Source: an uncultured Elusimicrobia bacterium (GTDB taxonomy: Bacteria > Elusimicrobiota > Elusimicrobia > Elusimicrobiales > UBA9959). From it: DNA of 33,157 bases. The stretch lies in contig CAIQNV010000133.1 of NCBI GenBank assembly GCA_903873295.1, forward strand, positions 1 to 33,157. Reading direction: 5' to 3'. The notes beneath the pieces were generated by a model. It was not told the DNA's origin. It worked only from the letters and a program-made list of their open reading frames with translations, and searched no databases. Shown here one piece after another: positions 1,699 to 29,576 of this stretch (position 1 is its first letter; every line of letters begins with the position of its first letter). The translations under genes and the position numbers were made by a program.

Positions 1699-3102
1699 AT
1701 GAAAAAACAGGACAACGCTCCCTCGTATTTTAACTGGCGCCGCCTCAAGACCGGCGTGCTGGTTACCGGCGACATGGGCGGCTGGGCCCTGCTGAAGCCG
1801 GCCGAGTTCTCCCTGTTCGCCGCTGGCAAACTTAAAAGCGGCCCGGCGTTCCGGGAGCTGGAAGGGGCCGGTTTTTTCCGCTCCCGCCTGGATTTCGACT
1901 CCATGTTCAGCAATTGGCGCGACTCCAACGAATACCTGCGCCTCGGGCCCGGGCTGCATATCATGGTGCTGACGCAGAAATGCAACCACCGCTGCGTCTA
2001 CTGCCAGGCCGGCTCGGGCGCCGGTAAGAATATGAGCCTCGCCACGGCCCGCCGCGCCGTGGATTTCGCTTTCAGCGCCCCGGTGGGCGGCCTTACGCTA
2101 GAGTTCCAGGGCGGCGAGCCGCTCCTGAACTGGCCCGCCCTGAAAGAAACCTCCATTTATGCGCGGAAAAAAGCGGCGGAGACCGGCAAGGAGCTGGCCC
2201 TGGCGCTGGTCTCGAATTTCAGCCTCATGGACGCCGGGAAAGCGGATTTTATAGTCGAGAACGACATCTCCCTCTGCACTTCGCTCGACGGACCGGCCGG
2301 GCTGCATAACGCCAACCGTAAATATTCCGGCGGTGACTCCCACGCGGGCGCGGTAAAGTGGATAAAATATTTCCAGGAGCGGCGCGGCGTCGAACCCCCC
2401 GGCGGGCCCAGCGCGCTGCTGACCGTCACGCGGGCTTCGCTCGGCCGCGCCCGCGAAATAGTGGACGAGTACGCCCGCCTTAAACTGCCTTACGTTTTCC
2501 TCCGGCCCCTTTCGCCCATGGGCCACGCCCTGAGGCGCTGGGAGGAGATAGGCTATACGCCGGAGGAATTCCTGAAATTTTACCGGGAGGGGCTCGACCG
2601 CGTTCTGGAGCTGAACCGGCGCGGCGTGGCAATAAAAGAAAAAACCGCTTTCCTGCTGGTAAAAAAAATACTCGGCTCCCAGGACAATAAGTACGTGGAC
2701 CTGCGCTGCCCCTGCGGGGCCGGGCTCGGCCAGCTGGCCTACGATTGCGACGGAGCGGTTTATACCTGCGACGAGGGGCGCATGCTCGCCCGCGACGGGG
2801 ACCGCTCCTTCCTGCTGGGCAGCGCGCTGAAAGACACCTACGGCGGGGTTATAAACTCGGAGCCGGTCAAAGCCTGCGCCATTGCCTCCAGCCTGGACCT
2901 GCAGCCCTTTTGCGCGCGCTGCGCTTACAGGCCTTTCTGCGGCGCCTGCCCGGCCTACAACCGGGCCGCGCAGGGCGGCTTTTGGGGCTCAATGCCTTCG
3001 AACGGGCGCTGCCGGGCGCTCAGGGGGATCTTTGACTATATTTTCGAGAAGCTGTCTGAAAAGCCTGTTTTGGAAGTGTTCGAAAAGTGGCTGGCCAGCT
3101 GA
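1699..3102 (+). CDS. hxsB: His-Xaa-Ser system radical SAM/SPASM maturase HxsB
   Basis: This 467-aa radical SAM peptide maturase matches what I know of HxsB across its length: an N-terminal peptide-recognition-like region, YLRLGPGLHI at the domain entry, CNHRCVYC (C95, C99, C102) for the catalytic 4Fe-4S cluster, EFQGGEPLLNW, TSLDGPAGLHNANR, and FLRPLSPMG. A C-terminal SPASM region has C337, C339, C357, C405, C408, C414, C417 and C438 for auxiliary clusters. HxsB acts with the His-Xaa-Ser repeat peptide HxsA; the installed modification is not known to me. The HGS-repeat precursor lies 1.25 kb downstream on the same strand. An ATG at 1681 is closed by TAA, so 1699 is the first usable start; its ribosome-binding site is weak. 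HxsC and HxsD are not found in the window. Confidence 0.9.
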   Translation: MKKQDNAPSYFNWRRLKTGVLVTGDMGGWALLKPAEFSLFAAGKLKSGPAFRELEGAGFFRSRLDFDSMFSNWRDSNEYLRLGPGLHIMVLTQKCNHRCVYCQAGSGAGKNMSLATARRAVDFAFSAPVGGLTLEFQGGEPLLNWPALKETSIYARKKAAETGKELALALVSNFSLMDAGKADFIVENDISLCTSLDGPAGLHNANRKYSGGDSHAGAVKWIKYFQERRGVEPPGGPSALLTVTRASLGRAREIVDEYARLKLPYVFLRPLSPMGHALRRWEEIGYTPEEFLKFYREGLDRVLELNRRGVAIKEKTAFLLVKKILGSQDNKYVDLRCPCGAGLGQLAYDCDGAVYTCDEGRMLARDGDRSFLLGSALKDTYGGVINSEPVKACAIASSLDLQPFCARCAYRPFCGACPAYNRAAQGGFWGSMPSNGRCRALRGIFDYIFEKLSEKPVLEVFEKWLAS

Positions 3103-3139
3103 GCTGCGGATGGCGGGGCGGGCGGGCGCCTGCGCAGGC

Positions 3140-3168
3140 TTGAAAAGAGACGTTTTTTGTGGTACAAC
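3140..3168 (+). promoter_or_regulatory. Candidate promoter for the 3224-6766 genes
   Basis: TTGAAA (3140-3145) and TACAAC (3163-3168) are separated by 17 nt in the 121-bp gap after hxsB. The -35 matches 5/6 and the -10 matches 4/6. It could give the precursor peptide genes transcription independent of hxsB. This is a pattern match only. Confidence 0.35.
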
Positions 3169-3223
3169 ATAGCATGCGCCTTCCAGCTAGTCTCAGGGAA
3201 GGCTGGGGAGTGGTATTTAAATC

Positions 3224-4339
3224 ATGAAAAAAATAATGATAGGCGTGGTAGTTTTGCTGGCGGCGGCCCTGATCGGCCTGAAATATTTTGCCGCAAAAAA
3301 GCAGGCGGACGTGACCCGGCCCGCCGCTCCGGCCGAGTCCGAGCAGCAGGGCGTGGCGCTGCCCGCCGCCTCTACCAGTTATGTGATCCCTAATACCGCG
3401 GTCACTTATACGCCGGTGCAGGCTACCGGCAGCTACGAGCTGCTGACCCTGCCCGCCGACGCGCTGGCCCTCAAGGGCGCCTGCGAGGGCGGGTCTCCCA
3501 AAGAGATAATGGCGAACCACGGCAAAACCTGGGGTTACTCCACCGGCCGCCGCAACTCCTTCGAGCCGAAAAAGACGCAGGAGATGTACAACTATATCTG
3601 GGAATACTACGCCTGCCTGGCAGCGTCGCGCCAGGACAATGCGGTCTGCAGCGAGCTTCCCGGCGACGTCGTGAAGGACGGCGTGAAGTTCGGCGTCCCG
3701 ATGAATATCTCCGGCGCCCTTCTGAGCCCGATGGCCCAGTGCCGGGAAAAGACCGTGATCTTCCTGTTCAAGGCTTATGTCGCCGGCAAATCCAAAGACC
3801 AGCAGAACTGCATGGACTATGTGAACGAATGGGACGCTGAGAACCTGTCCAGGATCTCCCCTCCCGAGTTCTGCGAGGCGGCGGGGCAGGGTCCGGAAAA
3901 AGCTTTGGCCTATGTCAAGCTGAAGATGCCGAACGTCTACCCTATGGCGGAGAAGATGCTGGCTTTTTCAAAGAAAGTCTGCGGCTCCGATTCCGGATGC
4001 CTCTCCAACAATGAATTATGGGAAGGCATAAAGAACGGGATCCCGGATAAATGCCCCGCCGCCTACCGGCCGAACTGCGCCGCCCTGGCGCAGAAGGACC
4101 CTGCGCCCTGCCTTAGCGTGCTTTCCGAGATGTCTAAGAAATATTGCACCTACTACAAAGAGCTGACCAAGCATGGCGGCGGCTACGCCGGCGTCACGCC
4201 CGAAGAGGTCAAGGATAACCTGAAGCTGGCGGCGAAGAAAAAAGCGGAGGAGGACGCTCTCCGCAAGCAGGAGGAGAATTCCACCAAACAGATCAACGAG
4301 CGCGTGCGCAAGCTGATAGGCAAGAGCAAGGGCGAATAG
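3224..4339 (+). CDS. Cys-rich exported or membrane-anchored protein of the hxs locus
   Basis: This 371-aa protein belongs to no family I recognise. Residues 1-20 form a signal peptide or uncleaved anchor (two lysines, then a hydrophobic stretch), so the rest should lie outside the cytoplasm. A Pro/Ala-rich linker follows. The body contains twelve cysteines, mostly 20-50 residues apart, including a CGSDSGC pair, which suggests disulphides. The last 60 residues are rich in Lys, Glu and Ala and could form a coiled coil. It ends 16 nt before the HGS-repeat precursor and is probably co-transcribed with it. Location suggests a partner, carrier or surface target of the modified peptide, but this is inference. 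The start has GGGGAG about 13 nt upstream, which is a loose spacing. Confidence 0.75.
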   Translation: MKKIMIGVVVLLAAALIGLKYFAAKKQADVTRPAAPAESEQQGVALPAASTSYVIPNTAVTYTPVQATGSYELLTLPADALALKGACEGGSPKEIMANHGKTWGYSTGRRNSFEPKKTQEMYNYIWEYYACLAASRQDNAVCSELPGDVVKDGVKFGVPMNISGALLSPMAQCREKTVIFLFKAYVAGKSKDQQNCMDYVNEWDAENLSRISPPEFCEAAGQGPEKALAYVKLKMPNVYPMAEKMLAFSKKVCGSDSGCLSNNELWEGIKNGIPDKCPAAYRPNCAALAQKDPAPCLSVLSEMSKKYCTYYKELTKHGGGYAGVTPEEVKDNLKLAAKKKAEEDALRKQEENSTKQINERVRKLIGKSKGE

Positions 4340-4355
4340 TCGAGGCGGTAAATTT

Positions 4356-4682
4356 ATGAAAAAGACAACTTCAAAACTGAAAAAAAACATCCGCATGTTC
4401 CTCAGCAGCGAGGAAGGCAAGATGCTGGACGCGGATATCGTGAAAACCGGCCTGGCACTGGGCATACTCGGCACGGTCATGATCGAGCAGGCGTCGGCGC
4501 AGGTCCACTCCAATTATTTCACCACTAACGCCCATGTCAGCCACCAGAGCCACGGCTCGCACGGTTCGCACGGCAGCCACGGTTCCCACGCCTCGCACGG
4601 CAGCCACGGTTCGCACGGCAGCCACGGCTCGCACGGTTCGCACGGCAGCCACGGCAGCCACGGCAGCCATGGCTCTTATTGA
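4356..4682 (+). CDS. hxsA: His-Gly-Ser repeat precursor peptide, HxsA-like
   Basis: This 108-aa putative RiPP precursor has a basic start and a leader-like segment (FLSSEEGKMLDADIVKTGLA, residues 15-34), then a hydrophobic Gly/Ala/Leu stretch to about residue 48. A short spacer follows. Residues 63-107 are 15 uninterrupted His-Xaa-Ser triplets: HQS, four HGS, HAS, nine HGS. It ends in a single Tyr. This is the architecture of HxsA peptides that pair with HxsB. The hydrophobic stretch may be part of the leader or an export signal. GAGG at 4346-4349 or nearby supports the ATG, and the next gene begins 6 nt after the stop. I am confident of the HxsA class, less so that it is orthologous to any named HxsA subfamily. 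Confidence 0.85.
   Translation: MKKTTSKLKKNIRMFLSSEEGKMLDADIVKTGLALGILGTVMIEQASAQVHSNYFTTNAHVSHQSHGSHGSHGSHGSHASHGSHGSHGSHGSHGSHGSHGSHGSHGSY
4542..4676 (+). repeat. Tandem 9-bp repeats encoding (His-Xaa-Ser)15
   Basis: Fifteen in-frame 9-bp units of the form CAC-GGN-Ser cover residues 63-107 of the precursor. Synonymous codons are mixed: Gly is GGC or GGT, and Ser is TCG, AGC, TCC or TCT, from both serine codon families. Only the second and sixth units change the middle residue or depart from HGS (HQS is the first unit, HAS the sixth). Confidence 0.9.
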
Positions 4683-4688
4683 TAACTA

Positions 4689-5804
4689 GTGCCCGGACGA
4701 CGCGTTTTTTACCTTCATAGCCCCTCAGGGGATATCGGTCATGCCGTACACCTGCTGCGGCTGCTGGCGGAACTTAAAAAAACCCGCGGCAGCCGCAGTT
4801 TAATTTTCCTGCGCGCCCCGTCCGTTTATCCATACAAGCTTTTTGAAAAATTCGGGAGGGTGGTCCGGCTTCCCGCCGCTCCTTCCGCCGCTTCCGGCCG
4901 CCGCCTCGCTTCGCTGCTGTCGAAGTTCCGGCCCTCGTCGCTGACGACCGAGTTCTTCCCTTTCGGCCGGGCAGAGTGCCGGCCGGAAGCAGGGCCCGTG
5001 CTGAAGGCGGCTTCGGCCTGCGGGGCGAAAATTTTCGCCAGCGTTCCAATGCCATATTTCACCGCCTCCGAGCGGGGCATTAAGGAAATGCTTGAAGTCT
5101 GCGCCCGCTACGATAAGATCCTGGTCCACAGCCCGGAAGGCGCCGACCTCCCTTATATGGCGAAAGCCGTAAGCCTGGAGCGGCGCGTCAGCCCGGCGGC
5201 TTTCCTTTCCGTTTTCAGAGGACTGCGCGACAAGATAGTGTTTACCGGCTACCTGCTTCCCGGCCCGGGTAAGAGCGTAAAAAAAGAGAGCTTCGTGCTG
5301 GTCACGCGCGGCGGCGGTTCCACCTCAGACGTGTTCTTTGAGGCCGCGATAAAGGCGGCTTCCCTTGTCGACAGCCCTTTCCTGTTTGTGGCAGGGCCGG
5401 CCACATCACGCCGGAAGCTGGTAAATTTCAGGCGGCTGGCGGCGGCCGGAGGGGGGAAGGCTGAAGTGATACGCAGTTCGGCCCGCATGCCTGACCTTAT
5501 TTCCCGGGCTGCCGTCTGCGTTTCTACCGCCGGCGGTTCCGTTTATGAAATGCTGGCCCTGCGGAAAAAAATGGTGCTGGTCCCTTTCTGCGGCGACAAA
5601 GGCCGCGAGCATTCCGACCAGCTCGCCCGCGCCTGGCTGATGAGGGACCTGGCGGGAGCGTCCCTGCTCCTGCCCGGCGACCTTGCGCCGGAAAAGATCG
5701 CGGCCGCGGTCCGGGAGCGGCTGACGAGGCCTCTCAAAATTTCAAGGCGCGTAAAACCCGCCTGGTTCCGCGGCGCGGAAAGGGCGGCGGCTATGATCTC
5801 ATGA
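4689..5804 (+). CDS. MurG/GT28-like GT-B glycosyltransferase
   Basis: This 371-aa cytoplasmic protein has the layout of a two-domain GT-B glycosyltransferase. The N-terminus carries a strand and Gly-containing acceptor loop (HSPSGDIGHAVHLL, residues 10-23). The C-terminal half has VTRGGGSTSDVFFEA, like the MurG GGS loop. Near residues 276-288 is CVSTAGGSVYEM, and then VLVPF with a following EHSDQLARA helix, the usual nucleotide-sugar site with its conserved Glu. GTG at 4689 is the only plausible start, because TAA at 4683-4685 closes the frame upstream. It lies 6 nt after the precursor stop and its own stop overlaps the next ATG, so translation is coupled to both. Coupling to an HxsA-type precursor suggests that it may glycosylate the Ser-rich peptide. 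A role in envelope glycans remains possible. Confidence 0.8.
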   Translation: MPGRRVFYLHSPSGDIGHAVHLLRLLAELKKTRGSRSLIFLRAPSVYPYKLFEKFGRVVRLPAAPSAASGRRLASLLSKFRPSSLTTEFFPFGRAECRPEAGPVLKAASACGAKIFASVPMPYFTASERGIKEMLEVCARYDKILVHSPEGADLPYMAKAVSLERRVSPAAFLSVFRGLRDKIVFTGYLLPGPGKSVKKESFVLVTRGGGSTSDVFFEAAIKAASLVDSPFLFVAGPATSRRKLVNFRRLAAAGGGKAEVIRSSARMPDLISRAAVCVSTAGGSVYEMLALRKKMVLVPFCGDKGREHSDQLARAWLMRDLAGASLLLPGDLAPEKIAAAVRERLTRPLKISRRVKPAWFRGAERAAAMIS

Positions 5805-6766
5805 CCGAAACAGTGATGATGGAACTTACCTGGCGCTGCAATGCGGCCTGCGCTTTCTGCTATCTGGGCGGGACGGGGCGCCTTAACAGCCGCGGGCCGG
5901 AGCTTAAGGACCCGGAAATAAAAACTTTTATGCGCCGCTTCGACCCCGGCACGCGGTTCTATTTCAGCGGCGGCGAGCCTTTTCTGCGGAAGGATATTTT
6001 TGAAATATTGGCTTACGCGGCCGCGCGCGGCTTCAATTGGGGCGTGAACACGAACGGCCTCGCGCTTGATGCCGCTAAAGTAAAAAGGCTGCTGGCCCTG
6101 AAGCCGGCCTATCTCATCTTTTCGCTCCACGGCCCCGCCGCCGTTCACGACCGGCTGCTGGGCTTAAAAGGCGCGCATAAAAAACTGCTGGCTAACCTGA
6201 GGCTGGCGGCGGAATTTAAAACACCGGGAACCGAGATAATGACCAACTGCGTGATAAACGCGGCCAACGCGGCCCTGCTGCCCGCAGTTTACCTGGACGC
6301 GGCCCGCGCCGGGGCCGACAGGGCGGTGTTCGAACAGCTGCAATTCGTGAAAAAGAAAGAGGCCTTCCGCGCCGGGCTTGCCCCGGCCGAAGTAATTACC
6401 CCGGCCCTGGAAGGCTACAGCCTGGACATTCGCGCGCTGGCGGCTTCGATCAAAAAAATAAAAGCGCTGCGCGGGGCTTTCGGGACCCATTTCGAGCTGA
6501 GGCCGGATTTTACGGCCGCGCAGTTGGAGCGTTATTATAACGGGCTGCTGAAACCTTCAGGGAAGTGTCCCGGTCTGCTCTCTACCGTCAACGTGGAGCC
6601 CGACGGGCGGATACGGACCTGCGTGCTGTACGCCGCGCCCGCCGGAGGAGTTGAGGATTTTGACCGCGCGGCCGTGTTGAGGGTTAAGCGCCGGCTGGTA
6701 AAAGGCGGCCTGCCGCAGGCCTGCGCCCGCTGCTGCCATCGCTTTAAAATTAAGCGTATATTCTGA
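5801..6766 (+). CDS. Radical SAM protein with twitch/SPASM-like C-terminus
   Basis: This 321-aa radical SAM enzyme carries CNAACAFC (C13, C17, C20) and SGGEP (56-60), followed by VNTNGLAL and SLHGPAAVHDRL, as in the SPASM/twitch class. Near the C-terminus are CPGLLS, the EPDGRIRTCVLY strand and CARCC, enough cysteines for an auxiliary cluster, but the region is shorter than a full SPASM domain. ATG overlaps the upstream stop (ATGA, 5801-5804). It is not HxsC as I know that family, which has a different TGGEPTL region. It may be a second maturase for the HGS-repeat peptide, standing in for HxsC. The stop codon touches the structured element beginning at 6767. Confidence 0.82.
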   Translation: MTETVMMELTWRCNAACAFCYLGGTGRLNSRGPELKDPEIKTFMRRFDPGTRFYFSGGEPFLRKDIFEILAYAAARGFNWGVNTNGLALDAAKVKRLLALKPAYLIFSLHGPAAVHDRLLGLKGAHKKLLANLRLAAEFKTPGTEIMTNCVINAANAALLPAVYLDAARAGADRAVFEQLQFVKKKEAFRAGLAPAEVITPALEGYSLDIRALAASIKKIKALRGAFGTHFELRPDFTAAQLERYYNGLLKPSGKCPGLLSTVNVEPDGRIRTCVLYAAPAGGVEDFDRAAVLRVKRRLVKGGLPQACARCCHRFKIKRIF

Positions 6767-6896
6767 GCGGTTGCCCGGGTGACCGGGTTAGCAAAACCTT
6801 CTTGAGGACGAGGGTTGCATAGCCCCGAGTCCGAGAGATGAGGAAGGCCACGGTGTGGCCGACCGCGTTTTGCGTTCCGGTCACCCGGGCAACCGC
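6767..6896 (+). ncRNA. Structured intergenic element, family 1, copy B
   Basis: A perfect 20-bp inverted repeat (6767-6786 with 6877-6896) encloses the conserved core. Inside it, GCAAAAC (6791-6797) pairs with GTTTTGC (6867-6873), CTTC (6798-6801) with GAAG (6843-6846), GGCCAC (6846-6851) with GTGGCC (6855-6860), GGAC (6806-6809) with GTCC (6829-6832), and GGG (6812-6814) with CCC (6824-6826). A symmetric GA/GA loop (6810-6811, 6827-6828) separates the last two stems and TTGCATAGC caps them. It begins right after the upstream stop and ends 12 nt before the stop of the convergent gene, so it may also act as a 3'-end or terminator structure. I do not recognise it as a known RNA family. Confidence 0.65.
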
Positions 6897-6908: not shown

Positions 6909-7619
6909 CTATTTAGCTTTAAGTATTTCAGAAGGCAGAGAGAAGCGGGCGAGGCCGCGGGTTTCCAGCTTCTTCAGGAAAGAAACATAATCGGCGAATA
7001 TTTTTAAGTCCTTGCCTTTGATGTCGGCGTGGTGGAAATAGATGCCGGCCGGCTTGTGGCCTTCCCGCAGCTCCGCGAGCGTCCGCGACCTAAGCAGACT
7101 TAAAGACAGCCGGTGCGGCTTTAATTCCAGATCATATTCGTTCACCGTCACCCGCGTGCCAAGGAAAACAGGGGCGCCGGCCTGAGCGCTTTTCAGCCGG
7201 CGGCTGGCGGAAATGCCTTTAAAGCCGAGCCTGGCGAGAGCCTTCAGGGTGTCCTCATTGTAGACGTGGAAAGGCGGCACGAAAACCGGCTTTGAGAGTT
7301 TGCCGAACAACTTAGCCATCAGCTTTTTCCCGGCGGCGATATCTGCCCGCTGCATTCCGTAAGAGCGCGAGGGGCCGAACTCGTGTTTAAGATATTTGTT
7401 GCCGGAATGCTCAGCGTGACGGAAGCCGTGCTGCAAAGCCTCCAGCCGCGTACCGCCGGCGGCTTCGCCCCGGAAGAAAGCGGCCAGTCCGGCCCCGGCA
7501 AGCGCCGGGATGACGGCATAGGACACAGGCAGGTCCGCCGCCTTGAGCAGTTTGAAAACGCGCAGGAAAGCCGGGTCCGGCTTTATTACGTCGTCGCAGC
7601 GCAGGAAAAATGTCTTCAT
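6909..7619 (-). CDS. CE4-like polysaccharide deacetylase family protein
   Basis: This 236-aa protein has the NodB-homology plan in short form: RCDDV with D9 and D10 (catalytic base and metal Asp positions), QHGFRHAEHS with H64 and H68 spaced as the metal-binding H-x3-H (H71 is a further His), FVPPFHVYN in place of the RPP motif, and IYFHHADI for the late catalytic His. These are metal-dependent de-N-acetylases of glycans, although some members have other amide substrates. No signal peptide is seen, so it may act in the cytoplasm on a precursor. ATG at 7619 is preferred over an in-frame start at 7718, because the extra 33 residues are basic and unlike the family and because ATG overlaps the upstream stop (ATGA). 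It is the last gene of the minus-strand train. Confidence 0.7.
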   Translation of the reverse strand: MKTFFLRCDDVIKPDPAFLRVFKLLKAADLPVSYAVIPALAGAGLAAFFRGEAAGGTRLEALQHGFRHAEHSGNKYLKHEFGPSRSYGMQRADIAAGKKLMAKLFGKLSKPVFVPPFHVYNEDTLKALARLGFKGISASRRLKSAQAGAPVFLGTRVTVNEYDLELKPHRLSLSLLRSRTLAELREGHKPAGIYFHHADIKGKDLKIFADYVSFLKKLETRGLARFSLPSEILKAK

Positions 7620-8917
7620 CTGGACATCCACGGGTCGGCGCCGAAAACGGAGCCGGCGGCTTCGGCCTGGAAGCGGCTGCCGCCGAGGCAGACAGGAAGC
7701 ATTGAGCAGCGCTTGCACTGTAACGGGAGCCAGGCCGCTTTACGGGTTTTTTTCAGGAAGGAATGTTTCCAGGCGCCCGTGAGCGTGCCGCCCAGGAATT
7801 CTTTGGAGGGATAGCTGGGCTTGTAGCTCCCGGAGGCGTCCAGGACCAGGCGGGTCCAGCCGTCGTCGAAACGCGCGCCCAGCGCGAAGGGCCTGGCCGC
7901 GGCCGGCAGGCAGCAGAGCGGGACGGGATTTGCCAGCACGGCCCGCGCGCAGCCGGTTTTCTGGGCTGCCGTTCTTTTAGCGAGCTCGATGAAGTCCCTT
8001 CTTGTTATCTTGAACTCCGGCGCGGCGGCGAGGGCTTCCGTCGTCATCATCGGGCGATAAAGCTCCCAGCTGTCGAAGCCGAGAGCGGTTACGGCTTTAT
8101 GCCAGCGGGCAAATTCTTTAACGAGCGGTTTCGAAACCACGGTCCCCGCCCTTACTACCTCTACGCCCGCGGTCCGCAGCCGCTTTATGGACGCCGTCTT
8201 AAGCCCGAAGAGACCGGCCCTGCCTGAGCCTGCCGCATGGCCCGCTTCGTCCACGCCAGGCAGGGAGACCAGGGCATTGTCTATAAGCCCGGCCAGCGCG
8301 CGCGCCCTCGCCGGAGTGAAAAGCACGGCGTTGGTGTTTAAAAGCGTGTAGAAATTAAGCTTGCGCGCGAGGCGCAGAAGTTTTTCAAGGCCGGGGTGAA
8401 GCAGCGGCTCGCCGCCGGTAAAGCGGACGTTTTTAACTCCGAGCGCGGCGGCCTCGCGCAGAGCTTTTTCAGCCGCTCTGACCGGCAGCTCTTCGCCGCT
8501 CCGCCCGAAACAGGCCCGGCAGGCCAGATTGCAGTTCTTGTTCAGCTCGATTACAAGTTCGGCGGGGGCGGGCAATACCGGTTTTAAAAGCCCGGCGGCG
8601 CCTGTCCAGGTTTTATTGAGCCCGGGGCAGCGCCCGTCAAGCGCGCAGCTGCGGCAGGCGGGTATATGCTTAAAAGACCCTTTCACGCCCAGCGGCCAGG
8701 TAAAATGCTCGAAAGCGTCAGGCATCAGGCAGGCCGGGGCGCGGCTTACGGTTATTATGAAATTATTCTCAAGCCCCGCCAGCAGCGGATAGAGAATGAT
8801 CCGCGCGGCTTCCGGCGCGGCGCCGGGCGCAAATAAAATTTTCAACGCCCGGGCCCGGAGGTCCAGGTCCGGCTCAAGGCCGCTCTCGGCCGCGGCGCGC
8901 AGGAGTTCTTCAAGCAT
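7616..8917 (-). CDS. Radical SAM/SPASM protein with extra N-terminal Cys region
   Basis: This 433-aa protein has a catalytic radical SAM motif CNLACRAC (C129, C133, C136), FTGGEPLLHPG, TLLNTNA, and a C-terminal CKRCSMLPVC Cys pattern typical of SPASM auxiliary-cluster binding. Unusually, residues 60-100 already contain PACLMP and then C88-x2-C91-x5-C97-P-G-L, which looks like the C-terminal tail of a different radical SAM/SPASM protein. The gene may therefore descend from a partial tandem duplication or fusion. It overlaps the upstream radical SAM gene by 8 bp and the downstream deacetylase by 4 bp. Likely role: peptide or sugar modification coupled to the neighbouring CE4 enzymes; the substrate is unknown. 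Confidence 0.82.
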   Translation of the reverse strand: MLEELLRAAAESGLEPDLDLRARALKILFAPGAAPEAARIILYPLLAGLENNFIITVSRAPACLMPDAFEHFTWPLGVKGSFKHIPACRSCALDGRCPGLNKTWTGAAGLLKPVLPAPAELVIELNKNCNLACRACFGRSGEELPVRAAEKALREAAALGVKNVRFTGGEPLLHPGLEKLLRLARKLNFYTLLNTNAVLFTPARARALAGLIDNALVSLPGVDEAGHAAGSGRAGLFGLKTASIKRLRTAGVEVVRAGTVVSKPLVKEFARWHKAVTALGFDSWELYRPMMTTEALAAAPEFKITRRDFIELAKRTAAQKTGCARAVLANPVPLCCLPAAARPFALGARFDDGWTRLVLDASGSYKPSYPSKEFLGGTLTGAWKHSFLKKTRKAAWLPLQCKRCSMLPVCLGGSRFQAEAAGSVFGADPWMSR

Positions 8918-10061
8918 TGTTTAAGCTCCAGAAATAATTTCCGCCCTTGAAAGAGCGCTTTACGAGGCCTTTTTTTACCAGGGCTGACCCTGTGATCATG
9001 ACATTAGCGCCGTCGGCGCAGTCATAGCAGAGCGGCACTCCCTTGGCCGCCAGCAGTATAGCGGCGGTGCTAAGGAGCTTCCCGCCGCGCAGTATTTCCA
9101 GAAAACATTTCTCATTGTTCGTGAAATAGGGCCCGGTTTTAGCGGACGCGGGCATGGGCTTGGTTTTTACAGGGGAAATCCCCTTCCAGCCGAAGATCCC
9201 GAGATAGTTGCCGTCTATGCCTCGGCATTTGGTTTTAAAGAAACAGCGCGCGCAGAGCGGGCCTTGTCGTCTGGCCGCGGCCGCCACGGAGTCCAGGTCC
9301 CGCTGCACGCCGTCGGCGGCCACTACCACCGTATTGAAGCGGTATAGTCCTGAGGCCCTTTGTTCGAAACCGGGCAGCAGACAGGGCGGGACGTTCAAAG
9401 CTTTAACTTCCCGGCCAAGGCCGGAATCTGAAGCCAGGCGCAGCGCTTTAACTATGTAAGGCGCGGCCTGCGGCAGGCTTACCCGCAGCCCGGCGGAGCG
9501 GGCCATCTCGCCCGTGTATATCGGGTAGATCAGGACAAAATTCGCAACGCCTTTATCCATAAAGAACCTGAGGCTTTCCGGCAGGGCGCGGTAGTTAGCC
9601 TTGGTTATCAGCAGGTTCACACCGACGGCCGCCCTGAGCTTCATTATGTTCGAAAGGCCGGCCAGGCTTTTTTTGAAAGCTCCCGGCTTGCCGACCAAAC
9701 GGTCATGCGTCTCCGGAAGATGGCTGGCGAAGGTGAATTTGCACACGGTGAGGCCGGCGCGCACCAGTTTAGCGGCTGTCGGTATCGAGGCAAGGCGCGC
9801 TCCGTTGGTCTGCAGCCGCACCGCTTTAAAGCCCACGCGGCGCGCGGCTTTTACCAACTGCGGCAGGTCGGGGCGCAGAAGGGCTTCGCCGCCGGAAAAG
9901 CCCAGCCTTTTGAACCCGGCGCGTTTCGCGGTGTAAATATGTTTCACGGCTGCGGCGGCGGGCATGAAGGCCGACGGCTCGAAGTCGGCCTGCGAACAAA
10001 AAACGCAGCCGAGGTCGCAGGCGTGGTTGAGTATTATTTCGCAGCAGTCTCTTTTCTTCAT
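8910..10061 (-). CDS. Radical SAM/SPASM protein with winged-helix-like C-terminus
   Basis: This 383-aa protein contains CDLGCVFC (C15, C19, C22) and SGGEALLRPDL (a GGEA variant of GGEP), then RLQTNG and PPCLLP with C227. The SPASM-like C270-x2-C273-x5-C279 is followed by RGIDGNYLGIFGW. After about residue 305 a separate 75-residue tail (LRGGKLLSTAAILLAAKGV then ALVKKGLVKRS) resembles a small winged-helix domain, which is inferred from residue pattern only. It begins 2 nt after the upstream deacetylase stop without a visible Shine-Dalgarno, suggesting translational reinitiation. The radical SAM/SPASM assignment is firm; the substrate is unknown. Confidence 0.84.
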   Translation of the reverse strand: MKKRDCCEIILNHACDLGCVFCSQADFEPSAFMPAAAAVKHIYTAKRAGFKRLGFSGGEALLRPDLPQLVKAARRVGFKAVRLQTNGARLASIPTAAKLVRAGLTVCKFTFASHLPETHDRLVGKPGAFKKSLAGLSNIMKLRAAVGVNLLITKANYRALPESLRFFMDKGVANFVLIYPIYTGEMARSAGLRVSLPQAAPYIVKALRLASDSGLGREVKALNVPPCLLPGFEQRASGLYRFNTVVVAADGVQRDLDSVAAAARRQGPLCARCFFKTKCRGIDGNYLGIFGWKGISPVKTKPMPASAKTGPYFTNNEKCFLEILRGGKLLSTAAILLAAKGVPLCYDCADGANVMITGSALVKKGLVKRSFKGGNYFWSLNNA

Positions 10062-10063
10062 TG

Positions 10064-10936
10064 CTATGCGGGTGTCGCCTCGGCGCCCTCTTGCGCTATT
10101 TCGGGGGCCGGATCGCCGGATGGGCAGCAGTTTATGATATCCCGTACCGGGGCCCAGCTGAATTCTTCAAGCAGCGCTCCGACCTTAAGCGGCACGCTGC
10201 CTATATTGTAGTATTGCACGGCCCGCTTGTAAAAAGGCAAAGGTTCCGGCGGGGCGGCGTCGAACTCCCAGGTATGGAAGTAAAGCAGGGCCGGCCTGCC
10301 GGAGGCATTGAGCGCGGCGGTTCTCTTTCTAAGGAACCCGGGGGAGGCCCAGCGAAGGAAGGTCCCTCCCAGGAAAGGCAGGCTGAGCCCCGCGAATTTA
10401 AAAACCGAAGGAGGGAACTCGATCAGGCCGGGGATCGCCTCGTAAGGGAGGGCAGGGGCCGCAGTGAAGCCGGACGGATAGAGGCTTGAGTCGTAGGAGA
10501 ACCCGGCCGCCTTTATGAGCGGCAGAAATTCCCCCGCGCGGCCTTTCAATGACCAGGTCGGGGAGCGGTAGCCCAGCGGGGCGGTGCCGGTAATTTTCTC
10601 GATAATCTCGCGCGAGGCCCTGAGGTCGGAGGAAAATTCCGCGGGCGTCAGGCGCCACAGCGACCTGTGCGCGTGGCCGTGGCTGGCTATTTCGTGGCCG
10701 CGCCCGGCTATCGCCCGGATCTCCTCCGGGTAACGGGCCGCCAACTCGCCCAGGATAAAAAAAGTGGCTTTTACTCCGCGCCTGTCGAGCAGGGCCAGGA
10801 TATCTTCGAGATTGCGGCTAAAAAAACTTTTGTGCGGAGCGGGGGAGCGCGAAAAAAGTACCGTGTCGTGCCATTCCTCGGCGTCGACGGTCAAGGCGTT
10901 GAGCGTACGCGTCCCGGCGCTTCGTTTCGCTGTCAC
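10064..10936 (-). CDS. Polysaccharide deacetylase, XrtA/PEP-CTERM-locus type
   Basis: This 290-aa CE4 enzyme has NALTVDAEEWHD at 13-24 (D18 as base/metal residue), ATFFILGELA, GHEIASHGHAH with H86 and H90 for the metal, GYRSPTWSLK for motif 3, and LLYFHTWEF for the late His. The VDAEEW start and HEIASHGH wording match the deacetylases found in exosortase-associated exopolysaccharide loci, which de-N-acetylate polysaccharide. No exosortase is visible here. The start is GTG at 10936, overlapping the upstream stop as GTGA. No clear signal peptide is present. The Pro/Glu/Ala-rich tail after about residue 270 appears unstructured. Confidence 0.85.
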   Translation of the reverse strand: MTAKRSAGTRTLNALTVDAEEWHDTVLFSRSPAPHKSFFSRNLEDILALLDRRGVKATFFILGELAARYPEEIRAIAGRGHEIASHGHAHRSLWRLTPAEFSSDLRASREIIEKITGTAPLGYRSPTWSLKGRAGEFLPLIKAAGFSYDSSLYPSGFTAAPALPYEAIPGLIEFPPSVFKFAGLSLPFLGGTFLRWASPGFLRKRTAALNASGRPALLYFHTWEFDAAPPEPLPFYKRAVQYYNIGSVPLKVGALLEEFSWAPVRDIINCCPSGDPAPEIAQEGAEATPA

Positions 10937-11625
10937 GCTTTCCTGAGGAAGGTTTCCACCGTCCTGCGTATTAGCCGGTGCTTCACCGGCCGGTTCGGGG
11001 TGAAATAAGCGTTGCCTATCATGTAAAGGTCCTCGCCCAGCACCTTAGGGTTTCTCAGTTTTACCGGGGCGCCGCAGACGCGCGCGCAGGGGGCGGAGTT
11101 GAAAGCCTTCATGTGCGGGCAGTAGCGGGAGGTGGAGCGGAATCTGTAGGGGCCGTGATAATGGATAGCGCCCTTGAAGCCCGACAACTGTTTTAGCACG
11201 GGCTCGCAGTCCGCCTCCGCCGCTTTTATGCCGTACTCACGGCAGAAGGAGTTGAGGAAGGGCTTGTCCATGCGGGCTATTTCCCAGACGATAAGCCTGC
11301 CCAGTACCGGCCGCGCCTTCCCGCGGTACTTGTCCTGCAGTATCTGCAGCAGGCCCCAGTCGTTCACTACTATCTCGAAATCTTTTTGTCTGCCTAAATA
11401 TTTTTTTAGCAGGTCCGCGGCGCGCCCGAGGCCGCGCTCGCTCATTATGGAAGTGACGGTGACCACGCGGCCGTGGAAAATAGCGGCCAGTCTTTTGTAG
11501 TCGGCCGGGGACGGCAGCCTGTTCTCGCAGAATTCCCCGCCCAGGTAAACGGCGTCGTAGCCTTTCAGCCGTTCCGCCGTGACCAGCGGGATCTCAGAGG
11601 GTGCTAAAAGTATAGTTCTTTCCAT
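10933..11625 (-). CDS. UbiV-like U32-family partner protein, copy a
   Basis: This 230-aa protein resembles the UbiV branch of peptidase U32: GYDAVYLGGEFCENRLPS near residues 22-38, EIVVNDWG at 84-91, and a C-terminal Cys group. C33, C169, C180 and C184 match the order and approximate spacing of the four UbiV cysteines that hold a 4Fe-4S cluster (E. coli C39, C180, C193, C197, from memory). It is shorter than UbiV. It overlaps the U32 gene at 11594 by 32 bp. The same overlap style recurs in copy b, which confirms this start. UbiU/UbiV are oxygen-independent hydroxylases of ubiquinone synthesis and related U32 pairs modify RNA, so an Fe-S hydroxylase is likely. The substrate here is unknown and no UbiT-like gene is seen. 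Confidence 0.68.
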   Translation of the reverse strand: MERTILLAPSEIPLVTAERLKGYDAVYLGGEFCENRLPSPADYKRLAAIFHGRVVTVTSIMSERGLGRAADLLKKYLGRQKDFEIVVNDWGLLQILQDKYRGKARPVLGRLIVWEIARMDKPFLNSFCREYGIKAAEADCEPVLKQLSGFKGAIHYHGPYRFRSTSRYCPHMKAFNSAPCARVCGAPVKLRNPKVLGEDLYMIGNAYFTPNRPVKHRLIRRTVETFLRKA

Positions 11626-12493
11626 AGTTCTGGGCTTTCACGGCCGCCCGCGCGCCTTCGTAAAGGAAAAGTTCTTTGGAGATTCCCTTCTCCAGCAGCT
11701 TCGTGATGTAGACCGTAGTATTGAACACCTGGATCACTTCTTCTATATTGGGGCCGCGCGCGACCTTCATCATATCGGCGCCAAGATGGTAAATATCGTA
11801 AAGCGTGGACAGCAGCCAGCGCGTGTCGGGCATCGGCATCCTGAACTTCTCTCCGTCGGGCCGGAGCAGGTCCGACTGGCAGGTGAACGGGCGCGGCGCT
11901 TTGCCCGGCACTATTTCCTGGCCGCAGGGGCACCACATCGAGCAGAGCGGGTTCAGGTTCGTCTCGTAGAAAAGCGGCAGGCAGAAGATCTCTATCTCCA
12001 CGCCTTTTCTGTTCCTGAAGAGCGGCGCGGCTTCCTCCGGCGTGATCTGCTGGGGCAGCACCACTCGCGAGATCCCGCGGTCCCTGAAAAAACCCAGCGC
12101 GCCGCTGTTGAAGCAGAGCGCCAGGGTGCTGAGAGTGAAATGGGTCTTTAGGCCTTTCTTCCGGAAATAATCCAGGATGGCCAGGTCCCTGATTATCACG
12201 CCGTCGATGCCGCGCTCCACCAGGACGGCCGCGGCTTTAGCGGCTTTGGGGAAATCTTTATGGGGGAAGATGTCGTTGGCGACGAGGAAAGCCTTTTTTC
12301 CGAGGGAATGGGCGATGTCTATGGTGCGATGGATATCTTCCAGCGAGCCGAAATTCTCGGCTTTGACGCCGTGGTTGGGAACAGCCGGTATGCCGCAATA
12401 AACTTCGTCGGCCCCGCGGGTGAGGAAATATTCGGCTTCCTTGAAATTGCGCACTCCGACGGTAAGGCCCAGGCGCTTTCCGGTTTTCTTCAT
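11594..12493 (-). CDS. Peptidase U32 family protein, copy a
   Basis: This 299-aa protein has a U32 TIM-barrel-type start: VGVRNFKEAEYFLTRGADEVYCG, KKAFLVANDI, DGVIIRDLAIL, and TLSTLALCFNSGAL. Cysteines C171, C184, C188 and C205 are shared in position with the paralogue at 13471 and are candidates for a 4Fe-4S cluster as in UbiU. C190 is extra. Despite the family name, characterised U32 proteins of this type are hydroxylases or hydroxylase-like RNA/quinone modifiers rather than proteases. AGGAAGA at 12501-12507 sits 7 nt before the ATG, so it starts afresh after a 334-bp gap. The stop lies inside the coding start of the UbiV-like partner, and the two probably act as a heterodimer. Confidence 0.8.
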   Translation of the reverse strand: MKKTGKRLGLTVGVRNFKEAEYFLTRGADEVYCGIPAVPNHGVKAENFGSLEDIHRTIDIAHSLGKKAFLVANDIFPHKDFPKAAKAAAVLVERGIDGVIIRDLAILDYFRKKGLKTHFTLSTLALCFNSGALGFFRDRGISRVVLPQQITPEEAAPLFRNRKGVEIEIFCLPLFYETNLNPLCSMWCPCGQEIVPGKAPRPFTCQSDLLRPDGEKFRMPMPDTRWLLSTLYDIYHLGADMMKVARGPNIEEVIQVFNTTVYITKLLEKGISKELFLYEGARAAVKAQNYGKNYTFSTL

Positions 12494-12827
12494 AAAAAAC
12501 TCTTCCTGCCTATATGATACTAAAATGGGGCTTCCGGGTTTAGCATGAGGACGTGCCGGTCATGGGATCGCTCATTCCGCCGCGCAGGAACCGTTGCGCG
12601 GTTCCCCCCGAAGCGGCGCCAGCCACGCATAAACCGCATAGCGGTTTTGCGCGGTCCCGGCTCGGCGGTTTTGCTTACGTTAAAAACCGCCAACGCCCTT
12701 GCGGCCCGGACGCGAAGCAGATTTATGCTTGGCTCTAAAGCCGGGCCTCACCTCCCCAAAGCGGCTCCAGAGCAACCCCATGCCCGGCCCGCGTTGTTTT
12801 ACCTTCGGCGGGCCCACTAAAATCAGT
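12494..12827. repeat. 334-bp gap with family 2 repeats and a branched fold
   Basis: No gene is supported. 12573-12616 and 12751-12766 are reverse complements of blocks at the left window end, and 12772-12790 is a direct copy of 114-132. GGAACCG and CGGTTCC near 12588-12607 form a tight hairpin. Between them and 12751 lies a branched palindrome: 12621-12633 pairs with 12722-12734 (12/13), enclosing AAACCGC-ATA-GCGGTTT (12631-12647) and a perfect 9-bp stem GGCGGTTTT/AAAACCGCC (12664-12672, 12683-12691). It splits two otherwise overlapping gene trains on the minus strand, so it could attenuate or stabilise transcript. No protein signature of a mobile element is present. Confidence 0.6.
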
Positions 12828-13508
12828 CTAGGCCGGGCCCGAGCCGGCCGGCCTGAATACCTGCCTGGCAGCGGAAGCCGGAACTTTTTTCGTCTGCTTG
12901 GAAAAATAGGCGTTGGCGGCCAGGAAGAGGTCCTGGCCCAGCTGGCGGTTGGTTAATTTAAGCGTGCGTCCGGCGCAGGAAAGGGCGCAGGCGGCCCTGA
13001 AATGGTTCTCGAAGGGGCAATAGGTGGTGACGGCTCTGAAAACATAGCCGCCGTGCCAGGAGACTCCAAGCCCCAGCCGCTTCGCCGCTTCCGCCAGGTC
13101 GGGGCGGTCCGCTTCCCCGCGCAGGATATTGTGCCGCCGTATAAAATCTTTGGCCCATGCCGGGGCCAGCAGGGCCAGCTCCCGCATCATCAGCCTGCCG
13201 GCTGAAATTTTCAGGCCGCGCTGCGTTCTAAGGAAGCCCGCGAAGCCCCAGTCGTTCACCACCACTTCCGCCAGCAGGGAGCGGTTCTTCCTGACGAAGC
13301 GCTCCCAGCCGCCCAGCGCTTTGTCCGTCATGAGCGGGGTGGCGAGGATAAAATTCCCTGCGGCTCCGGCCAGCGCGGCGGCGGCTTTAGCGGAGGGGAG
13401 TTCGTTCTGGCAGAATTCCGACCCGGTCATGACCGCGTCGAAACCAGCCAGCGCCTTCGGGCCGGCTTGTTCAGCCTGCCAGGGACTTAAGAGTAAAACT
13501 TTTTCCAT
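12828..13508 (-). CDS. UbiV-like U32-family partner protein, copy b
   Basis: This 226-aa paralogue of the protein at 10933 shares LLLxP at the start, FDAVMTGSEFCQNELPS, EVVVNDWGF, a late TYCPFENHF...CALSC group, and LGQDLFLAANAYF. C33, C164, C174 and C178 repeat the four-Cys arrangement of copy a and of UbiV, which suggests a 4Fe-4S cluster. It overlaps the U32 gene at 13471 by 38 bp. The Ala/Pro-rich tail differs from copy a and may be dispensable. The product probably pairs with the 13471 protein; the target of the reaction is unknown. Confidence 0.66.
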   Translation of the reverse strand: MEKVLLLSPWQAEQAGPKALAGFDAVMTGSEFCQNELPSAKAAAALAGAAGNFILATPLMTDKALGGWERFVRKNRSLLAEVVVNDWGFAGFLRTQRGLKISAGRLMMRELALLAPAWAKDFIRRHNILRGEADRPDLAEAAKRLGLGVSWHGGYVFRAVTTYCPFENHFRAACALSCAGRTLKLTNRQLGQDLFLAANAYFSKQTKKVPASAARQVFRPAGSGPA

Positions 13509-14349
13509 ATTGCATCGGCTTCGCGTCTATGCGCAGGCCCTCGTGTATAAAGAGCTTGCGGGAAACGCCTTTCTCCAGCAGCTTCACCAGCAGCCTCACT
13601 TTCTGGAACAGATCTATCTCGCGCAGGATATTCGGCCAGCGCGCCACTTTGGCGTGGCCCGCCCCGAGGTGATAATAGTCGTAGAAAGCGCCGAACATAT
13701 ATTCCGGCGGCGGCATGGGCATGCGGAAAATATCTTTGCCGCAGGCATAGGGGAGCAGGCAGGTGAAATCGGTGAATTTTTTGCTGAAATTCTCGCTGGT
13801 CTGCGGGCAGGGCAGAGTGCAGAGGGAATCCAGGTTCACGCCGTAATAGAGCGCCTGGCAGAAAACCTCGGTGTCCAGCCCGTAGCGGTTTTTGATGAGC
13901 CGCTCCGCGTTCTCGGGCATCAGCTGCATTGGCAGCACGAGGCGCGAAAGCCCAAGCTTTGCGAAAAAGCCGAGAGTCTTAGAGTTGAAGCAGTTCGCCA
14001 GCGTGCTGAGCGTGAAATAAAATTTGAATTTTTTCTTCTTGAAATAAGTCAGCAGGGCGGGGTCGCGCAAGATGGCTCCGTCCGCGCCCATATCTTTGAG
14101 CGCAGCCAGCGTCCGGAGAGTTTCGGGGTGCTCAGCTTCCCGCACCAGCTCGTTCACGGCGACGAAAACTTTTTTCCCGGCGCGGTGGGCCAGCTCCAGG
14201 ACGGGCCTGAGGTCTTCGGGGCCGGAAAAATTCTCCCTTGGCAGTCTGTTATTGCGAAGGCTGACCAGGCCGCAATAGACCTCGTCCGCCCCGTTGGCGA
14301 GGAAGTATTCCGCTTCTTTGCGCGATTTAACGCCCGCGGTTATTTTCAT
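13471..14349 (-). CDS. Peptidase U32 family protein, copy b
   Basis: This 292-aa paralogue of the 11594 protein starts at the conserved barrel segment (ITAGVKSRKEAEYF, GADEVYCG, GADGAILRDPALL, TLSTLANCFNSKTLGF). C164, C177, C181 and C197 align with four cysteines of copy a; C203 is extra. Both copies keep RMPMP and the later YHLGA-KVARxPNI stretch, which marks a shared subfamily. ATG overlaps the stop of the methyltransferase (ATGA). As with copy a, an Fe-S hydroxylase-type role with its UbiV-like partner is more likely than proteolysis. Confidence 0.8.
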   Translation of the reverse strand: MKITAGVKSRKEAEYFLANGADEVYCGLVSLRNNRLPRENFSGPEDLRPVLELAHRAGKKVFVAVNELVREAEHPETLRTLAALKDMGADGAILRDPALLTYFKKKKFKFYFTLSTLANCFNSKTLGFFAKLGLSRLVLPMQLMPENAERLIKNRYGLDTEVFCQALYYGVNLDSLCTLPCPQTSENFSKKFTDFTCLLPYACGKDIFRMPMPPPEYMFGAFYDYYHLGAGHAKVARWPNILREIDLFQKVRLLVKLLEKGVSRKLFIHEGLRIDAKPMQYGKSFTLKSLAG

Positions 14350-15206
14350 CCGGCCCTCGAGCAGACGCAGACCGTGTTTCCCAGCCCCAGCAGGGTGTCG
14401 GCTTTCGTGAGGCGCGCCGCGAGCGACAGCGCGCGCACCCAGGCGGGCAGTTTTCTTTTAAGCGTAAGCGAAAGTCTGTCCTCGTCTCCGGCAATACTGG
14501 TCTGCTCCAGGCTCTCCGCGCGCAGTCCGGCCTCACGGAGAAGGCGGCGGAGCGACGCTGGCGTGAAAAAATTGATATGCCCGTGGTGCAGCGGGCTGCC
14601 TTTATAAAGGCCGAGGGCCTTGCGGACCTTCGCGCGCAGGCCCAGCAGCGATTCATCGGGGACCTCCAGGTAGACCTTGCCGCCTTCGGCGAGCGAAAGT
14701 GTTGCTTTCCTCAGGAATTCAAGCGGCTTGGGCGCGAACTGAAGCACGTCCACGGCCACCAGCAGGTCGAAGCGGCCGTGGTGCTCCGGGCCCGGCAGCG
14801 GGCCGTTCTCCACCCTGCCGGCCAAATTTTTAAAATTATCTAGCAGGCAGCCGTAAAAGACCGGCGAGGCCTCAAAGCCCAGATACGCTCCCGAGGCCGC
14901 CGCTAAATGAGAGGCCAGGCAGCCCAATCCCGCGCCCAGCTCAAGGACCTTCAGCTTTGAAAGCTCTCCGCCGGTCAGGCGCTTTATGCGCTCCGCCCGG
15001 CGCCCGTCCACGCGCAGGCGCGCCTCCAGAAAGCCGGGCTCGGCAAGCCTGTCTATGCATTTGTCCCCGCAGGCGGCGCAGGCGGCCGCGCAGCCGCTGT
15101 AAGGCTCCCTGTACATGAAGCCGCAGCCCGGGCATTTCATGATGTCGCTGTCCTGCGAGCGTAAAAAAAATTCGGGGCGGTCCCCGCCGCAGAGTTCGCA
15201 GGTCAT
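14346..15206 (-). CDS. Class I SAM-dependent methyltransferase with N-terminal zinc ribbon
   Basis: This 286-aa protein starts with C3-x2-C6 and C25-x2-C28, the zinc-ribbon layout common to small-molecule and sugar C-methyltransferases. A second Cys cluster follows (C39, C43, C46, C50). The SAM-binding motif I is VLELGAGLG (87-95), followed by LGFEASP (acidic loop), FDLLVAVDVLQFAPKP and GGKVYLEVPD, as in Methyltransf_23-type enzymes. HHGHINFFTPASLRRLL after the core is typical of that group. Both ends overlap neighbours by 4 bp, so it belongs with the SDR and U32 genes. The acceptor is unknown. Confidence 0.85.
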   Translation of the reverse strand: MTCELCGGDRPEFFLRSQDSDIMKCPGCGFMYREPYSGCAAACAACGDKCIDRLAEPGFLEARLRVDGRRAERIKRLTGGELSKLKVLELGAGLGCLASHLAAASGAYLGFEASPVFYGCLLDNFKNLAGRVENGPLPGPEHHGRFDLLVAVDVLQFAPKPLEFLRKATLSLAEGGKVYLEVPDESLLGLRAKVRKALGLYKGSPLHHGHINFFTPASLRRLLREAGLRAESLEQTSIAGDEDRLSLTLKRKLPAWVRALSLAARLTKADTLLGLGNTVCVCSRAG

Positions 15207-15937: not shown

Positions 15938-15990
15938 ATGGTTGATTCTATAAAATTAGCGGCGTCAAAAGTTACACTTCGCTAAAATAC

Positions 15991-15996
15991 TATAAT
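15991..15996 (+). promoter_or_regulatory. Candidate -10 box for the 16027 operon
   Basis: A perfect TATAAT lies 31 nt upstream of the 16027 ATG in the AT-rich divergent spacer. No good -35 is found at 16-18 nt, so it may rely on an activator or another sigma factor. AGGAAGG at 16014-16020, 6 nt before the ATG, is a strong ribosome-binding site. Confidence 0.45.
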
Positions 15997-16026
15997 TTAC
16001 AAGTTGGGCCTTCAGGAAGGAATAAT

Positions 16027-17028: not shown

Positions 17029-17029
17029 T

Positions 17030-20825: not shown

Positions 20826-20826
20826 A

Positions 20827-25583: not shown

Positions 25584-25623
25584 CCCGGGGAATCGGGACT
25601 AAACCGCCGTACTCCGAAGATCT

Positions 25624-26148: not shown

Positions 26149-26224
26149 CCGCGCGGCGCCTCTTTGCGGCCGAACCGCCGCCAGAAAAGAGAATTCCCGG
26201 CGAATATGGTCCCCTGCGCGAGAG

Positions 26225-29469: not shown

Positions 29470-29576
29470 TAGCCGCCCCCTGCCCCTGTTCCTGAAATGC
29501 CGGTCTGCACCGTTATCAGAAGACCTCAATATGATATAAAATTTTTGTCGGACGGGCCCGGAGGGGCGCCCGCGGC

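Follow-up and report, generated by a model that had tools for sequence, protein, structure and literature searches.

A His-Xaa-Ser-type peptide locus of Elusimicrobiota with a putative glycosyltransferase and an additional radical SAM gene

Results

A five-gene locus around an HGS-repeat precursor

The window analysed here is a 33,157-nt stretch of DNA, the complete contig C133 (CAIQNV010000133.1) of an uncultured Elusimicrobia bacterium (assembly GCA_903873295.1; genome G000, 3.49 Mb in 157 contigs, 90% complete). Its positions 1699 to 6766 carry an operon built around a precursor gene with a His-Gly-Ser (HGS) repeat, of the type of the His-Xaa-Ser (Hxs) system that Haft and Basu are said to have described. 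The locus, whose five genes are given below, is a conserved, lineage-restricted variant of this known, chemically uncharacterised kind.

1699..3102, plus strand: HxsB, a SPASM-type radical S-adenosylmethionine (SAM) maturase (TIGR03978, 432.7 bits, cut-off 370; Cys motifs)
3224..4339, plus strand: Cys-rich protein, exported or membrane-anchored (12 Cys; N-terminal hydrophobic segment by hydropathy)
4356..4682, plus strand: HGS-repeat precursor (HxsA4), 108 aa (NF038313, 71.3 bits, cut-off 55)
4689..5804, plus strand: putative glycosyltransferase (GT) of the GT-B fold, GTG start (PF04101, 26.5 bits, gathering threshold 22; GT-B matches in the PDB)
5801..6766, plus strand: rS1, a radical SAM protein with a twitch-type auxiliary cluster motif (PF04055, 60.4 bits; Cys motifs)

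A sequence-only reading of this DNA had confidently recognised HxsB and reported an HGS-repeat precursor, and in both the locus resembles the Hxs system, the two window proteins scoring above their family cut-offs. Its exported Cys-rich protein before the precursor and its different radical SAM partner after the GT were also borne out, as were its spacings, to the nucleotide: 16 nt lie between the end of the Cys-rich gene and the start of the precursor, the GT starts 6 nt past the precursor stop codon, and the start of rS1 overlaps the end of the GT by ATGA. The locus differs from the Hxs system in being without HxsC and HxsD, of which divergent forms below cut-off stand at a second locus (C73) of the same genome, and in adding the GT, rS1, the Cys-rich protein and convergent radical SAM and deacetylase genes.

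The GT and rS1 behave as an accessory cassette

We surveyed 340 genomes of the phylum, scoring at most four, five or six candidates per genome depending on the search; copy numbers are lower bounds, and absences of rS1 or HxsC4 are less firm than presences. GT homologues (E 1e-6) occupied 20 places in 19 of these genomes, every one of which also encodes HxsB (hypergeometric 3.7e-12, relatedness ignored), and the phylum searches found no GT homologue away from hxs genes. An HGS open reading frame (ORF) lay upstream on the same strand for 19 of the 20 GT genes, and the GT was the next recognised gene after the precursor at 18 places. At 16 places 7–49 nt (10 in the window) separated the last sense codon from the beginning of the tblastn match; in this spacing analysis, fourteen rows failing a first leader pattern were listed separately. 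In G102 and G124 the precursor also stands upstream of the GT with no other recognised gene between (in G124 across about a quarter of a kilobase), and at G131:C2 another radical SAM gene separates the GT from two precursors, which lie 1.6 and 2.5 kb upstream of it. The rS1 orthologues above 400 bits numbered 16, each immediately after a GT; rS1 was not seen at the GT places of G159, G131:C2, G102 (where 1.9 kb follow) and G140 (where the contig ends). The co-occurrence in relatives that the sequence-only reading had expected was thus found, with the GT, rS1, HxsB, the HGS precursor and the Cys-rich protein forming a conserved unit.

Two further radical SAM genes, rS2 and rS3 of the convergent block described below, were present at 17 of the 18 GT loci that extend rightwards for over 1.95 kb, and G131:C2 was without both (tblastn); radical SAM labels in relatives mark best tblastn matches, candidate orthologues at most. 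Neither the GT nor rS1 was found in G142 and G112, whether in the genome or in the related locus, and the G142 locus holds HxsB, the Cys-rich protein, an HGS ORF, rS2 and rS3. Given this joint absence, the GT and rS1 behave like an accessory cassette, added to a core that comprises the HxsB, Cys-rich protein and precursor genes together with rS2 and rS3. No GT was found in the genome of G113, where the contig stops 194 nt past the repeat.

HxsB/HGS loci without a GT are common in the phylum, and the precursor belongs to the existing HxsA4 family; the label "previously undescribed" in the sequence-only reading therefore has to be narrowed. All 340 genomes were searched to locate the GT and rS1, whereas most neighbourhoods read were chosen for an hxsB or HGS match, which biases neighbour counts there. 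Among 18 relative loci with named records, 15 were Elusimicrobia, Elusimicrobiales or Elusimicrobium and three "bacterium". A tree of 101 HxsB proteins, built by a quick method, placed the window type in a 16-member clade (support 97) of which 14 members have the GT; a neighbouring clade with 27 members (support 90, not starred) holds the C73-type proteins plus those of G124 and G102.

A conserved precursor family

The window precursor consists of a leader with FLSSEEGK, a hydrophobic segment, 16 HxS triads and a C-terminal Tyr. Its triad serines are encoded eight times by AGC and eight times by TCN, a split that points towards selection acting on the protein. The leader motif recurred in 59 of 60 HxS-repeat ORFs from the fetched loci, the remaining one being an antisense artefact, mostly as F[LF]xSEEGK with a hydrophobic stretch after it. 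Because leader plus repeat are kept across genomes and the Ser codons are mixed, the HGS repeat is not a chance feature. Across 908 triads the middle residue was G in 667, A in 79, S in 72, V in 31 and Q in 20, with others making up the rest, and the third was Ser in 880, under a pattern biased towards H-x-S/T. L059 (the same region as L127) was dropped from the precursor and GT-spacing analyses, and L097 (repeat frame broken) and one antisense match in L140 from the former.

HxsA4 exceeded its cut-off in 79 of the 340 genomes and HxsB in 90; at E 1e-5 and E 1e-60, respectively, the counts were 85 and 92, and 83 of the 85 HxsA4-positive genomes were in the HxsB set. The HxsA4 matches of the two outside it, G233 and G297, are weak.

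The 59 precursors ended in HGSY (29), GSGY (1), GGWC (16), HGQW (7), HGAW (2), HFSF (3) or NPRC (1). All 20 GT-linked precursors terminate in HGSY, and the GT was found at none of the 16 GGWC-ending loci. Terminal Tyr was considered as a marker of the GT and rejected: every GT-linked precursor ends in it, yet so do ten precursors without a GT.

An aromatic residue (Y, W or F) occupies one of the last two positions in 58 of the 59 precursors (window, L042–L140).

The maturases and the Cys-rich protein

HxsB has CxxxCxxC at residue 95 and CX9-15GX4C at 337. In rS1, CxxxCxxC at 13 is accompanied by a CX9-15GX4C stretch at 256–274 and CX2C at 308–311, the latter two being what we take to be the twitch auxiliary-cluster signature. 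Among the NCBIfam matches listed, rS1 fell below every curated equivalog cut-off. An identity as HxsC was rejected: rS1 reached 39.1 bits on HxsC4, and TIGR03977 was absent among the best 25 of its 61 NCBIfam matches. On the mycofactocin radical SAM model rS1 scored 46 and rS2 49 bits, against a cut-off of 265. For the three closest pairs of 10 loci, the ratio of non-synonymous to synonymous substitution rates (dN/dS) was 0.13–0.21 for HxsB, 0.17–0.19 for rS1, 0.07–0.28 for the GT and 0.16–0.48 for the Cys-rich protein.

All 12 Cys of the Cys-rich protein are invariant in 15 aligned sequences (alignment A4). It matched no NCBIfam or Pfam family at E 0.1, and among known structures its single match (E 0.012) was a designed protein.

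Another radical SAM gene resembling rS1 (145–181 bits) occurs at G000:C147:39470-40441 (L172) and in relatives, at 15 places at E 1e-40 and in GT-bearing genomes only. In relatives it often lies distally in the convergent block, at its far edge; in G000 it is on a separate contig.

The GT-B protein is favoured to be a transferase

The description "MurG-like" held at the level of the superfamily, PF04101 being above its gathering threshold in the window protein and matched by 11 of 17 aligned homologues, and failed at the level of the murG equivalog (TIGR01133, 22.3 bits, cut-off 250.25). An AlphaFold model built from 17 sequences (20 GT places being known) reached a predicted local distance difference test score (pLDDT) of 90 and a predicted template modelling score (pTM) of 0.88, compared with a pLDDT of 40 from the single sequence. 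With this model, Foldseek retrieved the GT-B proteins CalG4 (E 1.6e-11) and MurG 7d1i (E 3.5e-10). By sequence, the GT profile found no close solved structure, the best match being ribonuclease E (E 0.048), with MurG 7d1i at E 0.15. The invariant residues His18, E287, D310 and Q311 lie in GDIGH, GGxxYE and DQ elements, which presumably resemble transferase motifs. GTRPE and TERPE, motifs of epimerases, do not occur in the GT. Given the transferase-like invariant elements and the missing GTRPE/TERPE, its sequence favours a transferase rather than an epimerase.

A second hxs locus without a precursor

The sequence-only reading had found neither HxsC nor HxsD. This was right for 1699–6766, and HxsD (TIGR03976) had no match at E 0.001 anywhere on the window contig; it did not extend to the HxsC-like rS3 nearby, nor to HxsC- and HxsD-like genes elsewhere in the genome. 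The latter stand at C73: a pair of HxsD-like genes (about 26.0–26.7 and 21.2–22.2 bits, cut-off 50) and an HxsC-like radical SAM gene (about 147.8–149.8 bits, cut-off 267.9). C73 also has an hxsB of its own, the second of the genome (477 bits), the HxsC4-like radical SAM gene rSa and a gene for a protein homologous to the Cys-rich one, with 30% identity and the same 12 Cys. HxsC4 (NF038332) is the best named model for both rSa (157.4 bits) and the window's rS3 (95.0 bits); unlike the HxsA4/HxsC4 variant, both fall short of its cut-off of 500, and rS3 is likewise far below the 267.9 of HxsC (TIGR03977). Among 59 family genomes HxsD exceeded its cut-off in 11 and HxsC (TIGR03977) in none. HxsC4 at E 1e-60 was found in none of the 340 phylum genomes, and the positive control was likewise silent, so this shows little.

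C73 has no HGS repeat, and the window's HxsA4 match is the sole one in the genome. hxsC and hxsD beside another precursor, which the sequence-only reading had named as evidence against itself, were therefore found in part only: genes of both types do stand elsewhere, with no HGS precursor beside them. A check of C73-type loci covered 11 genomes that also bear a window-type locus, and the repeat was absent in 10 (G000, G150, G143, G149, G130, G142, G126, G139, G157 and G131). Exactly one HxsA4 match occurred in 15 of the 19 GT genomes, G124 and G102 included. Two hxsB genes share a contig, 11.5–20.7 kb apart, in G150, G143, G149, G142, G126, G139, G157 and G131, and the paired genes adjoin one that by eye resembles ornithine carbamoyltransferase. 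G124 and G102 each have one gene run that reads HxsD1-HxsB-HxsD2-Cys-rich-HGS precursor-GT. The simplest reading is a duplication, after which HxsD was lost from one copy and the precursor from the other.

Several further genes were noted at these loci. A membrane ORF of C73 (L009 147-1301) is prepilin peptidase-like by eye but matches nothing in Pfam or NCBIfam at E 0.1, and in relatives such an ORF usually adjoins the HxsC-like gene. A surface-type protein with a TTYYPAPYG motif (L009 6640-7425, C73) recurs upstream of HxsD1 in many HxsD-bearing loci. An orphan HxsC-like radical SAM gene on contig C106 (L159 5822-6715) adjoins an ORF resembling a papain-type protease by eye; the 14 kb read there contain neither hxsB nor an HGS repeat.

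Convergent block and the rest of the window

Opposite the operon lies a minus-strand block whose genes overlap or abut:

6909..7718, minus strand: DUF2334/polysaccharide-deacetylase-like protein (PF10096 40.3 bits, PF01522 25.4 bits, both above gathering threshold)
7616..8917, minus strand: rS2, radical SAM protein (PF04055, 59.7 bits)
8910..10061, minus strand: rS3, radical SAM protein nearest the HxsC4/HxsC models (NF038332 95.0 bits, TIGR03977 68.6 bits)
10064..10936, minus strand: polysaccharide deacetylase related to the XrtA-system type (PF01522 79.9 bits; TIGR03006 183.6 bits, cut-off 276.2)
10933..12493, minus strand: U32-peptidase-like gene pair (UbiU-like 11594-12493, PF01136 58.0 bits; partner 10933-11625)

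Of the 18 GT loci whose sequence continues for over 1.95 kb on the right, 15 have the DUF2334 gene (tblastn), and the radical SAM/deacetylase part of the block probably belongs to the GT-bearing Hxs system. The U32-like pair, patchy in relatives, is a possible member.

Two tandem U32-like pairs stand beside the radical SAM genes (10933-14349, minus strand), and similar pairs lie near many hxs loci of relatives. U32-type proteins have been linked, in the portions of the literature consulted, to tRNA hydroxylation and an O2-independent quinone pathway; that they act in the Hxs pathway would be a guess. The remainder of the window (15203-33053) is rich in radical SAM genes, with at least four B12-binding-type proteins (HpnJ/BchE-like and others), and also encodes an HpnA-like epimerase and an XrtA-type (XrtA-associated) FemAB-like protein.

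A repeat of about 105 bp flanks the operon in inverted copies (1517-1621 and 6783-6880). We considered these as borders of a transposable hxs cassette and rejected the idea: the repeat occurs at 46 or more places across the genome and is thus an interspersed repeat, not a cassette boundary. Scans of the window gave six promoter-like sites against 1.2 expected, every one within genes, terminators at chance level (nine against 8.3 expected) and no Rfam match.

Discussion

We consider it about an even chance that these genes form a split Hxs-type system of Elusimicrobiota making a ribosomally synthesized and post-translationally modified peptide (RiPP), with the GT and rS1 as a tailoring cassette. 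The leader would recruit HxsB, with the HxsD- and HxsC-like proteins of C73 acting in trans, and HxsB would modify each His-x-Ser triad, most plausibly by linking His(C2) to Cbeta(Ser) between residues i and i+2, as radical SAM enzymes do on His-x-Ala motifs. The GT and rS1 would next tailor the peptide, the GT adding a sugar to Ser hydroxyls or to the terminal Tyr; that the GT glycosylates the HGS peptide is plausible from gene position. The deacetylases and rS2/rS3 may alter the attached sugar, the aromatic precursor end is perhaps a processing or modification site, and the mature peptide would be exported and have the Cys-rich protein as a partner in the envelope.

Such chemistry has partial precedents. 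The consulted part of one paper names HxsB and HxsC as the putative maturases of the motif of Haft and Basu (PMC9062424). In mycofactocin, a radical SAM RiPP is glycosylated by MftF (PMC7491314, as far as consulted), a precedent for maturation of a ribosomal peptide by a glycosyltransferase plus radical SAM enzymes; there, the precursor is a different one and the product a redox cofactor. SPASM/twitch radical SAM enzymes join residues i and i+2 through His(C2)-Cbeta(Ala) or Phe(C4)-Cbeta(Ser) bonds, and triceptides with His cyclophanes are made by HaaB, ScaB and YhhB, according to the consulted portion of PMC11002830. Because such His and Phe bonds are known, a His-Ser bond in HGS is reasonable. 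The aromatic i to i+2 linkage is compatible with H-x-S, and the "aromatic-x-X3" core motif of triceptides is present in the window precursor in its 16 HxS triads. A literature search of titles and abstract openings found no paper describing a GT-bearing Hxs locus and none on Hxs-system chemistry.

Several observations weigh against the split system as proposed. At G107 the GT follows HxsB with no precursor between, the G112 locus (Cys-rich protein, HGS ORF, rS2 and rS3) has no HxsB in the stretch read, and the GT was not seen downstream of 10 of the 30 Tyr-ending precursors (one cut by a contig end) and is dispensable there. The C73-type locus of G140, the eleventh genome checked, keeps a precursor ending in RGGWC. 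The HxsD- and HxsC-like matches at C73 are all below curated cut-offs, and it is gene content that suggests their action in trans. The two loci of G000 stand on separate contigs, so there we infer their linkage. Unlike triceptide maturases, the window HxsB scores only 28–38 bits on the related cyclophane models GrrM/OscB, YhhB, FxsB and AmcB (cut-offs 310–445). UDP-GlcNAc 2-epimerase relatives are among the top Foldseek matches of the GT, with scores like those of glycosyltransferases.

Among the alternatives, we take seriously, while judging it unlikely, that the GT, the deacetylases and rS1–rS3 make a modified envelope glycan, de-N-acetylated and radical-rearranged, with the HGS protein a non-covalent or separately matured partner untouched by the GT. 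The two deacetylase-like genes of the convergent block and, elsewhere in the window, the HpnA-like epimerase and XrtA-associated FemAB-like genes would suit such a pathway, and twitch radical SAM enzymes also use small-molecule substrates. The position of the GT directly behind the precursor at nearly all its places speaks for a peptide substrate, as do the confinement of strong rS1 orthologues to genes behind a GT and of GT homologues to hxs surroundings. The sequence-only reading had instead let the GT and rS1 stand in for HxsC and HxsD in a self-contained variant. It agrees with the finding that in none of the 16 clade members does an HxsD-like match lie 700 nt or less from the window-type HxsB (tblastn, C73 proteins). 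We nevertheless do not regard the pair as replacements, because HxsC- and HxsD-like genes stand at C73 in the same genome and HxsD-like genes flank HxsB in one gene run with the GT in G124 and G102; a self-contained variant is accordingly improbable.

It is more improbable still that the HGS protein is chiefly a metal-binding, His-rich surface protein and that the radical SAM and GT genes have other substrates: its His content is high and its repeat simple, but the RiPP-like leader and the H-x-S spacing are conserved, and HxsB accompanies HxsA4 in all but two HxsA4-positive genomes. Least probable of all, in our judgement, is that the GT-B protein is a nucleotide-sugar epimerase, for which the epimerase-family structures retrieved by Foldseek speak; the PF04101 matches of its homologues, its invariant His18, E287 and D310-Q311 and the absent epimerase motifs point the other way.

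A more elaborate form of the split peptide system seems to us rather unlikely: a glycosylated structural RiPP on the cell surface, a rod of crosslinked His-x-Ser triads made by HxsB plus other radical SAM enzymes and a dedicated GT, with deacetylase trimming, perhaps U32-type O2-free hydroxylation, and Hxs loci cooperating in trans.

Regardless, the locus offers a compact, testable Hxs system, with a short precursor, one HxsB and a two-gene cassette missing in some close relatives; G124 supplies a natural one-locus form with HxsD-like genes. The phylum-wide HGS precursors, with their shared leader and aromatic end, provide a comparative handle on substrate recognition. If the GT does act on the peptide, glycosylation would be added to the repertoire of radical SAM repeat RiPPs.

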